64,000 nt of DNA, from positions 1-64,000 of the forward strand of contig DATJPE010000083.1 in NCBI GenBank assembly GCA_035506535.1, in the 5' to 3' direction. The notes beneath the pieces were generated by a model. The model saw nothing but the letters and a program-made list of their open reading frames with translations, searched no databases and had not been told where the DNA came from. The stretch comes from Actinomycetes bacterium (GTDB lineage Bacteria; Actinomycetota; Actinomycetes; DATJPE01). The position numbers were made by a program, and so were the translations under genes. Shown here piece by piece: positions 11,479 to 51,510 of the stretch (within the stretch, counting starts at the first letter, position 1; each line of letters starts with the position of its first letter).

Positions 11479-11931
11479 GTGACCAACGACGCACGCGCCC
11501 GCAAGCTGGCGGACCGGATCCGGGTCATCGTGGCCGAGACGCTCGAGAAGCGGGTCAAGGACCCGCGGCTCGGGTTCGTCACGATCACCGATGCCCGCAT
11601 CACCGGCGACCTGCGCGAGGCCACGGTCTTCTACACCGTGTACGGCTCCGAGGAGGAGCGCGCCGCGACGGCGACGGCCCTCGAGTCGGCCAAAGGCGTG
11701 CTGCGCTCGGAGGTGGGCCGTCAGACGGGGGTCCGGCACACGCCGAGCCTGGTGTTCGTCGCTGACGCCGTGCCCGAGAACGCCGCGCACATCGAGGACC
11801 TGCTCCACGTCGCCCGCGCGGCGGACGCCCAGGTGCACGAGGTCGCCGCGCAGGCGACGTACGCCGGCGACGCCGACCCCTACCGCGCTGCCCACGAGGA
11901 CGCCGACGCCGACTCCTCCTCGTTGGCATGA
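11479..11931 (+). CDS. rbfA: 30S ribosome-binding factor RbfA
   Basis: This 150-residue protein starts at GTG, eight bases after GGAGGAGG. It is the KH-fold cold-shock/16S-maturation factor. Diagnostic segments are RIRVIVAETLEKRVKDPRLGFVTI (read as two adjoining parts), EATVFYTVYG and LRSEVGRQTGVRHTPSLVFV. The C-terminal tail after about residue 120 is acidic and longer than in Escherichia coli. The TGA stop lies inside the left arm of a 47-nt palindromic element (GCATGAACGCGG), so the last residues may have been changed by insertion of that element. Confidence 0.95.
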   Translation: MTNDARARKLADRIRVIVAETLEKRVKDPRLGFVTITDARITGDLREATVFYTVYGSEEERAATATALESAKGVLRSEVGRQTGVRHTPSLVFVADAVPENAAHIEDLLHVARAADAQVHEVAAQATYAGDADPYRAAHEDADADSSSLA

Positions 11932-11974
11932 ACGCGGCGTAGTTACACACCTCGTGGAACAACGCCGCGTTCAT
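11928..11974. repeat. 47-nt palindromic element, copy 1 (rbfA-truB junction)
   Basis: Arms ATGAACGCGGCGT (11928-11940) and ACGCCGCGTTCAT (11962-11974) are perfectly complementary and enclose 21 bases. The centre can pair further (GTT/AAC and CAC/GTG). The left arm holds the rbfA TGA stop and the right arm ends in the AT of the truB ATG. Three more copies of identical length lie at 39342, 45221 and 51445. Confidence 0.92.
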
Positions 11975-12869
11975 GGCTACGGAAGGCGCCCGGAGCGGGC
12001 TGGTCGTCGTCGACAAGCCGTCCGGCTGGACCTCCCACGACGTCGTGGCCCGGGTCCGCCGGCTGGCCGGGACACGGCGGGTCGGTCATGCCGGCACCCT
12101 GGACCCGATGGCGACCGGTGTCCTGGTGCTGGGGCTGGAGCGCGCGACCAAGCTGCTCGGCCACCTGGCGCTGCGCGACAAAGCCTACGACGCGACCCTT
12201 CGACTCGGCGTCGCGACGACGACGGACGACGCCGAGGGCGAGGTGGTCTCCGCGGCGGATGCCTCCGGCATCACCGAGGAGGCGGTACGTGCGGGAGCAG
12301 CCGACCTGACCGGCGCCCTCCTTCAGGTGCCGTCCGCGGTGTCCGCCATCAAGGTGGACGGGGTCCGCGCGTACGCCCGCGTGCGCGCTGGGGAGTCCGT
12401 CGAGCTCAGCGCCCGACCGGTCACCGTCACCGCGTTCGACGTGCTCGCGCTGCGCCCTGGTGACGGCGTCCTCGACGTGGACGTGCACGTCGAGTGCTCG
12501 ACCGGCACCTATGTGCGCGCCCTCGCCCGTGACCTCGGCACGGCGCTGAGGGTGGGTGGGCACCTCACCGCGTTGCGGCGTACCAGGGTCGGCGAGTTCG
12601 GTCTCGACGACGCGCGGACGCTGGACCAGCTCGAGCGGGACTTCGTGTCGATCCCCCTCGAGGTGGCGCTGGGTCGGTCCTTCCCGCGTCGAGACGTGGG
12701 CGCGGAGCTGGCCCGAGCGGTCACCCACGGCGGGCGGGTGCCGTTGGCGGGTGAGACCGGCCCCACCGCCGTCTACGGCCCTGACGGCACCGCCCTCGCC
12801 CTGATGGCGCCGATGCCCCCGGACGACCCCACCGCCCTCGCCCCGCTCGTCGTCCTCACTCCCGCCTAG
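11973..12869 (+). CDS. truB: tRNA pseudouridine(55) synthase TruB
   Basis: This 298-residue enzyme makes pseudouridine 55 in the tRNA T-loop. KPSGWTSHDVVARVRR opens the catalytic domain. GHAGTLDPMATGVL (about residues 35-48) carries the catalytic Asp. YDATLRLGVATTTDDAEGEV and the GTYVRALARDLG motif follow, then a C-terminal PUA-like part. The ATG comes from the right arm of a palindromic element, and no Shine-Dalgarno sequence precedes it. No alternative in-frame ATG or GTG exists in the element, so translation may depend on the hairpin or on coupling to rbfA. Confidence 0.95.
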   Translation: MATEGARSGLVVVDKPSGWTSHDVVARVRRLAGTRRVGHAGTLDPMATGVLVLGLERATKLLGHLALRDKAYDATLRLGVATTTDDAEGEVVSAADASGITEEAVRAGAADLTGALLQVPSAVSAIKVDGVRAYARVRAGESVELSARPVTVTAFDVLALRPGDGVLDVDVHVECSTGTYVRALARDLGTALRVGGHLTALRRTRVGEFGLDDARTLDQLERDFVSIPLEVALGRSFPRRDVGAELARAVTHGGRVPLAGETGPTAVYGPDGTALALMAPMPPDDPTALAPLVVLTPA

Positions 12870-19132: not shown

Positions 19133-19191
19133 GTCGGTCCTCGGTAGTGGCCCCCGGAGCCCCGCTCCGAGTGCCTCGATCGAAGACCGAC
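19133..19191 (+). promoter_or_regulatory. rpsO-pnp intergenic hairpin
   Basis: GTCGGTCCTCG (19133-19143) pairs with CGAAGACCGAC (19181-19191) with one mismatch. Inside, CGGAGC-CCC-GCTCCG (19155-19169) forms a second stem. A structured rpsO-pnp spacer is known as an RNase III processing site and pnp autoregulation site in other bacteria. That role here is inferred. Confidence 0.55.
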
Positions 19192-21506: not shown

Positions 21507-22853
21507 GTGGCGACCCTTCTCGCCGCCGAGCAGAAGCCCGGCACGACCCGCACTCTGCTGAGGGAGCCCGACGGGGGCGTCGTGCGCCGCACGGTGCTGC
21601 CCGGCGGGCTGCGGGTCCTGTCCGAGCACGTCCCGGGGGTCCGCTCGGCGGCGTACGGCGTCTGGGTCGGCGTCGGCAGCCGCGACGAGTCCGTCCGCCA
21701 GATGGGTTGCTCTCACTACCTCGAGCACCTGCTCTTCAAGGGCACGCACCGCCGCTCCGCCCTGGACATCTCCGCGGCGCTGGACGCCGTCGGCGGTGAG
21801 CTGAACGCGTTCACCGCCAAGGAGTACACCTGCTTCTACGCGCGGGTGCTCGACGCTGACCTGCCGCTCGCCGTCGACGTCGTCTCCGACGTCGTGACCT
21901 CGGCGCTCATCCGCGGCGAGGACGTCGAGGCGGAGCGCGGGGTGATCCTCGAGGAGATCGCCATGCGCGACGACGACCCCTCCGATGCCGTGCACGACGT
22001 CTTCGCCGAGCAGGTCCTCGGCGACACCCCGCTCGGCCGGCCGGTCATCGGGACGGTCGAGTCGATCGGGGCGCTCTCCCGCGCGACCGTCCACGGGTAC
22101 TGGCGGCGCAACTACACCCCGGAGCGCATGGTGGTGGCCGCTGCCGGCAACGTCGACCACGGTGCCCTCCTGCGGCTGGTCCGGCGGGCCTTCGCCGGTG
22201 TGCTCGAGCGCGCCGACGTCGACGTACGGCCATCCGTCCCGCGCCCCGACACGGCCGCCACCCGGCGCGGCTCGGCCGTCCACCTCACGCCCCGGCGTAC
22301 CGAGCAGGCCAACCTCGTCCTGGGCGGCACCGGCGTGAGCCGCCTCGACGAGCGGCGCTACGCCCTGTCGGTGCTGAACGCGGCGCTCGGCGGCGGGATG
22401 TCCAGCCGGCTGTTCCAGGAGGTGCGGGAGAAGCGCGGGCTGGCGTACTCGGTGTACTCCTACAACACGCAGTACTCGGGGGCGGGCCTCTTCGGGGTCT
22501 ACGCAGGTTGCCAGCCCGGCAAGGTGGACCAGGTCATCGAGCTGTGCCGCGCCCAGCTCGACGAAGTCGCCGCCCACGGCGTCACGGCCGAGGAGATGGC
22601 CCGCGGGCAGGGCCAACTGAAGGGCCAGTACGTCCTCGGGCTGGAGGACACCGGCTCCCGGATGGTCCGCATCGGCAAGAGCGAGCTCGTGTACGGCGAG
22701 CACCTCAGCGTCGACGAGGCGCTCGGCCGCATCGACGCTGTGACCCTGGACGACGTACGTGCGGTCGCCGCCGAGGTGCTGGACCGAACGCCCTCGCTGA
22801 GCGTCATCGGTCCCTTCGACGACGAGACCAGGTTCACCAGCGCCGTCGCCTGA
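21507..22853 (+). CDS. M16 family zinc metallopeptidase
   Basis: This 448-residue protein is an insulinase/processing-peptidase homologue encoded after pnp, as in many Gram-positive bacteria. The inverted zinc motif is HYLEH at residues 70-74 (usually HFLEH), followed by LLFKGT. The third ligand lies in ERGVILEEIAM near residue 150. NYTPERMVVAAAGNVDH and GMSSRLFQEVREKRGLAYSV mark the later M16 modules. It has no signal peptide, so it probably acts in the cytoplasm. It begins seven bases after pnp. Confidence 0.92.
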   Translation: MATLLAAEQKPGTTRTLLREPDGGVVRRTVLPGGLRVLSEHVPGVRSAAYGVWVGVGSRDESVRQMGCSHYLEHLLFKGTHRRSALDISAALDAVGGELNAFTAKEYTCFYARVLDADLPLAVDVVSDVVTSALIRGEDVEAERGVILEEIAMRDDDPSDAVHDVFAEQVLGDTPLGRPVIGTVESIGALSRATVHGYWRRNYTPERMVVAAAGNVDHGALLRLVRRAFAGVLERADVDVRPSVPRPDTAATRRGSAVHLTPRRTEQANLVLGGTGVSRLDERRYALSVLNAALGGGMSSRLFQEVREKRGLAYSVYSYNTQYSGAGLFGVYAGCQPGKVDQVIELCRAQLDEVAAHGVTAEEMARGQGQLKGQYVLGLEDTGSRMVRIGKSELVYGEHLSVDEALGRIDAVTLDDVRAVAAEVLDRTPSLSVIGPFDDETRFTSAVA

Positions 22854-22908
22854 CCCCCGGGCTGACCCGCCTCCCCGCCCAGCCGTCCCTCGAGCGCCCG
22901 ACGCCGGC

Positions 22909-22973
22909 GTCGACCGCGCCAGCGTCGACCGCGCCAGCCCTCGACCGCGCCAGCGTCGACCGCGCCAGCCCTC
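22909..22973 (+). repeat. tandem array of 15-17 bp GTCGACCGCGCCAGC units
   Basis: Four near-identical units of GTCGACCGCGCCAGC lie in a row, the second and fourth with an added CC and the third lacking its first base. It lies downstream of the M16 peptidase gene and abuts the first 60-nt palindrome. No coding frame or RNA family is recognised. Confidence 0.8.
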
Positions 22974-22977
22974 TTCT

Positions 22978-23037
22978 GCAGAAGTCCCATTTGTCCGATT
23001 TCCCAGCCCACTCTGGGGGGACAAATGGGACTTCTGC
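22978..23037. repeat. 60-nt palindromic element, copy 1
   Basis: GCAGAAGTCCCATTTGTCC (22978-22996) and its exact reverse complement (23019-23037) enclose a 22-base loop. This is a perfect 19-bp stem, AT-richer than its surroundings. It follows the M16 gene and could stop transcription, although no T-tract follows. Confidence 0.88.
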
Positions 23038-23051
23038 CGCAAGGTAGGACG

Positions 23052-23111
23052 GCAGAAGTCCCATTTGTCCCTGGGATGTACCGCTGCAAAAGGGACAAAA
23101 GGCACTTCTGC
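23052..23111. repeat. 60-nt palindromic element, copy 2
   Basis: The left arm (23052-23070) is identical to that of copy 1. The right arm (23093-23111) differs at two positions, and the loop is also 22 bases but unrelated in sequence. Copies 1 and 2 are 14 bases apart in the same orientation. The remainder of the 337-base gap (22854-23190) shows no other recognisable feature. Confidence 0.85.
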
Positions 23112-23190
23112 AGCAGATGGGCGGGTAGGCCAGCCCCGGTGCGGGGCGGTGGGGTTTCAGCGGCCGGGCGGTGTTGCCGAAGGCTGCTGT

Positions 23191-39263: not shown

Positions 39264-39341
39264 CGCCGGCTCGCGGAGACGTGGGCTGACGCCCGCACGC
39301 CCCGGCGAGGGCTGCCGTCCATCCGGCCGGCCTGTTCGGCA

Positions 39342-39388
39342 ATGAACGCGGCGTGGTTGCCCAGCTAGCGCAACAGCGCCGCGTTCAT
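39342..39388. repeat. 47-nt palindromic element, copy 2
   Basis: ATGAACGCGGCGT (39342-39354) and GCGCCGCGTTCAT (39376-39388) pair with one T/G wobble. The flanking A-T and C-G pairs extend the stem to 39340-39390. GTTGC and GCAAC in the centre also pair. Confidence 0.9.
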
Positions 39389-39457
39389 TGCTGACCAGGA
39401 AGCGGCTGCTGGTCGATCCGGCTGCCCAGATGTCGCGAGGTTAGGGACGCGGTCTGA

Positions 39458-45181: not shown

Positions 45182-45217
45182 GCAGTGAACGTGGCTGTAG
45201 CAGTGAACGTGGCTGTA
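45182..45217 (+). repeat. two 18-bp tandem units leading into a palindrome
   Basis: GCAGTGAACGTGGCTGTA occurs twice. A third, diverged unit (GCAATGAACGCGGCGTGC, 45218-45235) is the left arm of the 47-nt element, which suggests partial duplication of the arm. Confidence 0.75.
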
Positions 45218-45220
45218 GCA

Positions 45221-45267
45221 ATGAACGCGGCGTGCTTGCACTAGGTGTGCAACCACGCCGCGTTCAT
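45221..45267. repeat. 47-nt palindromic element, copy 3
   Basis: Arms ATGAACGCGGCGT (45221-45233) and ACGCCGCGTTCAT (45255-45267) are perfect. The centre TTGCAC-TAGG-TGTGCAA largely pairs too. The right arm supplies the TGA stop of the reverse-strand nei gene. Confidence 0.92.
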
Positions 45268-46091
45268 GGCGACCGGGGACGCGGGGCGACGGCGGGCTGG
45301 CACCGGGGGCACCAGGTCGTGACGCGCGGCGGACTGCCCTGCTCGCCGCGCGCGATCCTGGTGCCGCAGCGCCGGCAGGGGCGGCCGGCGCGGCCGTGGA
45401 CGTACGTGCCCTGGCCGCGTCGCGCGTCGCCGGTGCTCACCTGACGGACCGTGTCCCGGTTGGCGAGCAGCAGCCGGCGGGCGAGTCCGACCAGGCCCGC
45501 CAGGTCCGCGACATCGCCCACCAGGCACCAGGGGTCGAGGCCGCGCAGGAAGAGGACCTCGAGGCGATAGAGGTTGCCCAGGCCGGCGATGGCCGCCTGG
45601 TCGAGCAGCGCCACGCCGATCTCGCGGTCGGGGTCGGCGGCGAGCCGGCGGACCGCCTCCCGCAGGTGGGCGTCGTCCCAATCGTTCGCCAGCAGGTCCG
45701 GGCCGAGATGGCCGACGACGCGGGCCTCCTGCGCGGTGGGCAGCAGCTCGACGACCGGCAGGCGGTAGCCGACCGCGACTCGGCCGGGCACCTCGAGGAC
45801 CACCCGGACCTGGTGGTCCGGACCTCCCCGCCAGCGCTCGCCGGGCTTGTACAGGTGCCAGGCACCGTCCATCCGAAAGTGCGTGTGCAGGGTCAGCGGC
45901 GGCTGTGTGCCGTGGGCGGCCAGCCGAAGCAGCAGGTGCTTGCCGCGCGAGACGACCTCGAGCACGCTTCGTTCGCTGACGTCGACCGTGGCCAGGGCCG
46001 GGACGCGGAAGTCGCTGCGCACCAGGGTCCGGCCGGCGAGCGCATCGTCGAGCCGACGAGCGGCCAGCCAGACGGTGTCACCTTCGGGCAC
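45264..46091 (-). CDS. nei: Fpg/Nei family DNA glycosylase (endonuclease VIII-like)
   Basis: GTG at 46091 gives 275 residues starting PEGDTVW after the initiator. Pro2 and Glu3 are the catalytic residues after Met removal. THFRMDGAWHLYKPG, the ALLDQAAIAGLGNLYRLEVL helix-two-turn-helix and a C-terminal zinc finger (CRRCGTR to TWCPRC) define a base-excision-repair glycosylase/lyase. It overlaps the GNAT gene by 14 bases and lies downstream of lhr, a common actinobacterial lhr-nei pairing. Its TGA lies in a palindromic element, so the last residues may be element-derived. Confidence 0.94.
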   Translation of the reverse strand: MPEGDTVWLAARRLDDALAGRTLVRSDFRVPALATVDVSERSVLEVVSRGKHLLLRLAAHGTQPPLTLHTHFRMDGAWHLYKPGERWRGGPDHQVRVVLEVPGRVAVGYRLPVVELLPTAQEARVVGHLGPDLLANDWDDAHLREAVRRLAADPDREIGVALLDQAAIAGLGNLYRLEVLFLRGLDPWCLVGDVADLAGLVGLARRLLLANRDTVRQVSTGDARRGQGTYVHGRAGRPCRRCGTRIARGEQGSPPRVTTWCPRCQPAVAPRPRSP

Positions 46092-51421: not shown

Positions 51422-51444
51422 CATCGGGGTCCCCGTCTTCCCGA

Positions 51445-51491
51445 ATGAACGCGGCGTTCAGTCGGACCTATTGGAGGAACGCCGCGTTCAT
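51445..51491. repeat. 47-nt palindromic element, copy 4
   Basis: Arms ATGAACGCGGCGT (51445-51457) and ACGCCGCGTTCAT (51479-51491) are perfect. The 21-base centre differs from the other copies and pairs only weakly. It lies 19 bases from the end of the propeller gene. Confidence 0.92.
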
Positions 51492-51510
51492 TCGAAAGGG
51501 ATGGGGGTGG

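Follow-up and report, generated by a model that had tools for sequence, protein, structure and literature searches.

Dispersed palindrome pairs in an actinomycete genome and their probable relation to AbiEi-like/DUF559 nuclease cassettes

Two 60-nt palindromes located downstream of an M16 peptidase gene belong to a family with conserved arms which is dispersed in the genome of an actinomycete. In this genome and in relatives, palindromes bracket genes coding for a nuclease with conserved active-site residues, and in one relative such a cassette has recently been inserted. The paired palindromes are probably dispersed, gene-less copies of the end sequences of a mobile cassette built as palindrome, AbiEi-like/DUF559 nuclease gene and palindrome, the arms of which would be binding sites of the nuclease.

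The palindrome pair downstream of the M16 peptidase gene

In the window, i.e., the whole stretch of 64,000 nucleotides under analysis, the layout proposed in an earlier note made from the sequence alone (two 60-nt elements with 19-nt arms and 22-nt loops, 14 bases apart) was recovered in full (Table 1). Both elements are matched by the covariance model, element 1 at 22973-23042 (E 4e-18) and element 2 at 23047-23116 (E 3e-15). While the arms of element 1 are perfectly complementary, the right arm of element 2 carries two mismatches. The arm GCAGAAGTCCCATTTGTCC has four matches in the window, versus none in 100 dinucleotide shuffles. The palindrome runs further at its outer ends (CTTCTGCAGAAG...), and the outer end of element 1 is common to many of the 17 copies found in the genome; since CTTCT is added at many outer ends, the full arm is about 24 nt long and reads CTTCTGCAGAAGTCCC-WWWY-GTCC. 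Further upstream, the Actino-pnp RNA (RF01688) precedes pnp at window positions 19133-19191.

Table 1. Features of the palindrome pair and its surroundings in the window
Feature	Position	Strand	Description
M16 peptidase gene	21507..22853	+	Upstream of the elements, downstream of pnp; Pfam M16/M16_C
Degenerate tandem repeat	22904..22971		15/16-nt unit; abuts the elements
Element 1 outer arm, 24-nt extended form	22973..22996	+	Sequence CTTCTGCAGAAGTCCCATTTGTCC
Palindromic element 1	22978..23037	+	60 nt; 19-nt perfect arms, 22-nt centre
Element 1 variable centre	22997..23018		22 nt
Spacer separating the paired elements	23038..23051		14 nt
Palindromic element 2	23052..23111	-	60 nt; orientation of the centre opposite to that of element 1; outer arm with 2 mismatches
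Element 2 variable centre	23071..23092		22 nt

The two elements had been described as standing in direct orientation with unrelated loops. The centres are asymmetric, with the motif NNTTYC at one end, and the elements are thus inverted; the loops are indeed largely unrelated in sequence, save for this short motif shared by both. The arms are, as had been noticed, less GC-rich than their surroundings (53% G+C versus 73% for the window). A foreign origin, which this composition had suggested, is supported indirectly, and to that extent only, by the lower G+C content and by the linkage of the family to a nuclease gene of the kind recently inserted in a relative.

A dispersed palindrome family

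By pattern searches and a covariance model, 17 complete elements were found at 11 sites of the genome, along with one truncated at the start of contig C75. This search for further copies, which had been called for in the earlier note, bears out a dispersed palindrome family of fixed length (60 nt, or 59 nt in two copies, with a centre of 21 or 22 nt) and rules out a single local duplication. As to whether the elements occur singly or in arrays, six of the 11 sites hold pairs, whose members are 13-14 nt apart in all six; judged by the centre motif, the orientation is inverted in five of these pairs and ambiguous in one. In the alignment of the 17 copies, the arms are near-invariant except for an AT-rich four-base stretch, often mismatched between the two arms of an element, and the centres are without common sequence apart from the NNTTYC end. 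A phage origin was considered and rejected, no exact copy being present in viral contigs. Another palindrome family, with the core ATGAACGCGGCG...CGCCGCGTTCAT, occupies window positions 11921-11981, 39331-39399, 45215-45273 and 51442-51494 and is also found on other contigs of the genome (L050, L054 and L055).

According to simple gene calling, most sites are located at gene 3' ends, several of them between convergent genes. This position, together with the long inverted repeats, would suit bidirectional terminators or hairpins stabilizing 3'-UTRs which share their sequence by accident. Such an explanation is very unlikely, as a U tract is absent, the arm sequence is near-identical in the 17 copies, mismatches between arms are frequent in the AT-rich stretch, no element matched Rfam in a scan of nine loci and the palindromes are linked to nuclease genes. 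Arm covariation is weak which, along with the frequent mismatches in the four-base stretch, indicates that an RNA hairpin is not needed. Within the 22-nt centre, hairpin stability was no better than in shuffled sequences (mean z -0.04).

Nuclease genes bracketed by palindromes

The genome contains two DUF559 genes. The first, on C75 and outside the window, codes for an AbiEi-like/DUF559 (Vsr-like, PD-(D/E)XK) nuclease and is flanked on the left by the element truncated at the contig end and on the other side by a complete element at C75:919-977. The second, on C44, has a palindrome on either side, with a sequence differing from that of the window family.

A class-wide covariance-model search led to another genome (G189), which contains 74-nt cousins whose inner arm (GTCCCTTTTGTCC) is the same and whose outer arm (GATCAACACAC) differs; a DUF559 gene on one contig stands between two of them, and six others are solitary. 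A scan of GTDB genomes for exact copies of the arms returned eight matches. One of them, in Nocardioides deserti, is a GCAGAAGTCC...GGACTTCTGC palindrome adjoining an AbiEi-DUF559 gene at its 3' end, which was thus met blind by a pattern scan.

At loci L163 and L167, in genomes G127 and G105, respectively, the bracketing palindromes are near-identical to each other and differ by about 14-16% from the other copies in their genome; these bracketing pairs look as if they had been duplicated at insertion. G105 also possesses two AbiEi-DUF559 genes (L165 and L167), each with its own palindrome sequence.

A recent cassette insertion in a relative

In genome G093, the cassette separates two convergent genes, one mutM-like and the other acetyltransferase-like, as judged from their sequence. 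Sixty congeners were searched, among which 34 have both flanking genes collinear and lack the cassette. The gap between the flanking genes has a median of 37 nt in these 34 congeners (range -1 to 288, from aligned ends), versus about 1300 nt in G093. The cassette thus displays, in this one relative, the presence and absence pattern of a mobile element.

The inserted stretch of G093 carries short tandem repeats at each side. Short degenerate tandem repeats adjoin palindromes in two distantly related genomes, at the family sites of the window's genome and at loci L235-L243 of G093. In the former, tandem repeats were found within 250 nt of nine of the 11 family sites versus 36 of 252 control positions, which were mostly coding. 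These repeats may have been left behind by repair at cut sites.

Association of DUF559 genes and palindromes across the class

DUF559 genes are present in 103 of 148 sampled genomes of the class (~70%). At 19 of 82 DUF559 loci, matching hairpins were present on either flank at a distance of up to 1.6 kb, versus one of 200 control positions, taken in 400 kb of the same genomes. In a hairpin-free test, a 14-mer common to both 350-nt flanks was detected for 30 of 62 AbiEi-type DUF559 genes, the corresponding counts being 0 of 14 for the remaining DUF559 genes and 14 of 920 for controls. With the shared 14-mer in both orientations, the figures are 15 of 62 versus one of 920 (Fisher P ~3e-18). The exact contrast in this test may shrink with better controls, since the profile that assigned genes to the AbiEi-type class was derived from bracketed proteins and the controls are mostly coding. 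In about half of the AbiEi-DUF559 genes, bracketing repeats were undetectable.

It could be argued that DUF559 genes merely reside in repeat-rich intergenic islands, with palindromes unrelated to them, notably as tandem repeats cluster near the elements and the controls are random, mostly coding positions. Such a chance association is barely credible: the span between the matching palindromes on the two sides of the gene is nearly constant (966-1156 nt at 18 loci out of 19, 1397 nt at the remaining one), and none of the 14 DUF559 genes without an AbiEi-like part had a 14-mer shared by its flanks.

The palindrome sequence varies by locus. Seventeen bracketing palindromes, searched in 14 genomes, proved multicopy in their own genomes and, among the matches listed, fall on segments of their own genome. 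Across 22 families, arm similarity showed no overall tracking of protein similarity (Mantel P 0.12).

The AbiEi-DUF559 protein

In 18 proteins, the active-site residues E229, D256 and E267 are invariant. A profile of these proteins matches 3HRL, 3R3P (a mobile intron protein), PvuRts1I and the AbiEi-like antitoxin Rv2827c (1ZEL), and weakly Vsr. The conserved acidic residues and the matches to 3HRL, 3R3P and Vsr support the assignment to the PD-(D/E)XK, Vsr-like (DUF559) type. Pfam recognizes AbiEi_4 and DUF559 in the C44 and G093 genes, with AbiEi_4 E-values of 1e-10 and 2e-7, respectively. The C75 gene matches only C-terminal parts of AbiEi (PADLOC E 2e-12) and, like the DUF559 gene of G189, lacks the N-terminal wHTH; both genes may be decayed.

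It has been shown that AbiEi binds two 23-bp inverted repeats and Rv2827c four inverted repeats arranged as two tandem pairs (PMC7319586). The repeats of these operators (~23 bp) are similar in size to the arms described here, and the two tandem inverted pairs of Rv2827c resemble the paired elements. From this likeness in arm size and arrangement, and from a linked protein having AbiEi-like and nuclease parts, we infer that the arms are recognition sites and the centre the place of cutting. The AbiEi and Rv2827c operators are, in contrast, single-locus promoters of a toxin-antitoxin operon, whereas the arms investigated here are dispersed, situated at gene ends and bracket a nuclease fusion.

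The same likeness could be read as pure regulation, the protein being an AbiEi-like regulator, the palindromes on either side acting as operator and terminator of its gene, and those elsewhere in the genome representing a regulon or binding sites. AbiEi proteins indeed autoregulate through inverted repeats of equal size (PMC7319586), and arms that are conserved around variable centres would be expected of such sites. This reading is nevertheless unlikely, as most copies occupy the 3' ends of genes or the gap separating convergent genes rather than promoters, an identical palindrome flanks both sides of the gene and the whole cassette of G093 has been recently inserted.

Proposed mechanism and comparison with known systems

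In the mobile cassette that we favor, two AbiEi-like DNA-binding protomers would recognize the two inverted arms, whose 19-24 nt correspond to the size of an AbiEi half-site. The fused PD-(D/E)XK domains, similar to those of Vsr and homing endonucleases, would then cut in or beside the centre of fixed length, and through repair, cassettes and palindromes would be copied or inserted elsewhere, chiefly at the 3' ends of genes. The conserved arms would thus represent the recognition sequence, and the centre, fixed in length and variable in sequence, the spacer for cutting.

This organization is reminiscent of REPtrons (REP/REPIN and RAYT), with which it shares the abundance of dispersed palindromes, their inverted pairing, the presence of an enzyme gene between copies of the same palindrome and the coexistence of several families in a genome. 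These features would be accounted for if the elements were classical REP/REPIN elements mobilized by a RAYT (Y1 HUH), or MITEs of an insertion sequence, which is highly improbable: Y1_Tnp (PF01797) has no match in the window's genome, positive controls being detected, and the linked gene codes for an AbiEi-like protein with a PD-(D/E)XK nuclease, whereas the REPtron enzyme is a HUH Y1 transposase. REP are defined as short palindromes tagged by GTAG/CGTC (PMC3733652). The aligned arms of the 17 copies lack a GTAG tag on inspection, and arms of ~24 nt surround a 22-nt centre here, versus REP units of 20-40 bp. As the RAYT enzyme is absent from the genome, the mobile cassette proposed here can be regarded as REP/RAYT-like in its working, but is not classed there.

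Free-standing Vsr-like (EDxHD) homing endonucleases such as I-Bth0305I also have a nuclease domain related by profile (3R3P) and a mobile gene invading sites which lack it. They differ from the present system, which possesses an AbiEi-like DNA-binding part, is intergenic and has a whole palindrome on each side, while the homing type has a split target. Similarly, VsrA of Caulobacter contains a DUF559 domain of the PD-(D/E)XK type and may cause double-strand breaks in vivo; this protein is tied to cytosine methylation, and palindromes are not mentioned in its report (PMC12907096). A literature search, with subscription papers largely outside its range, found no paper tying DUF559 to palindromes.

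Integron attC sites have the ends GTTRRRY and RYYYAAC. A comparison by consensus led to the rejection of this candidate, as the element ends CTTCTGCAG do not fit.

Implications

On a more tentative note, at slightly less than even confidence, these elements may form an undescribed and widespread class of actinobacterial mobile DNA, in which a fusion of AbiEi-like and Vsr-like parts would act like a dimeric nuclease of the zinc-finger type on inverted arms around a 22-bp spacer, and would spread its own gene and gene-less palindromes by nuclease-provoked repair, without a transposase. As a natural modular nuclease, such a protein is predicted to combine a DNA-binding part reading an arm of 19-24 nt with a nuclease cutting a spacer of fixed length.

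DUF559 is still annotated as being of "unknown function", and cognate dispersed palindromes give its AbiEi-type members a testable role. They also provide an origin for many palindromic repeats of high-GC genomes that have stayed anonymous, and constitute a REP-like system centred on an unrelated enzyme. The recurrent pairing of nuclease genes and palindromes in many actinobacteria suggests mobile DNA of a kind that has been little described.
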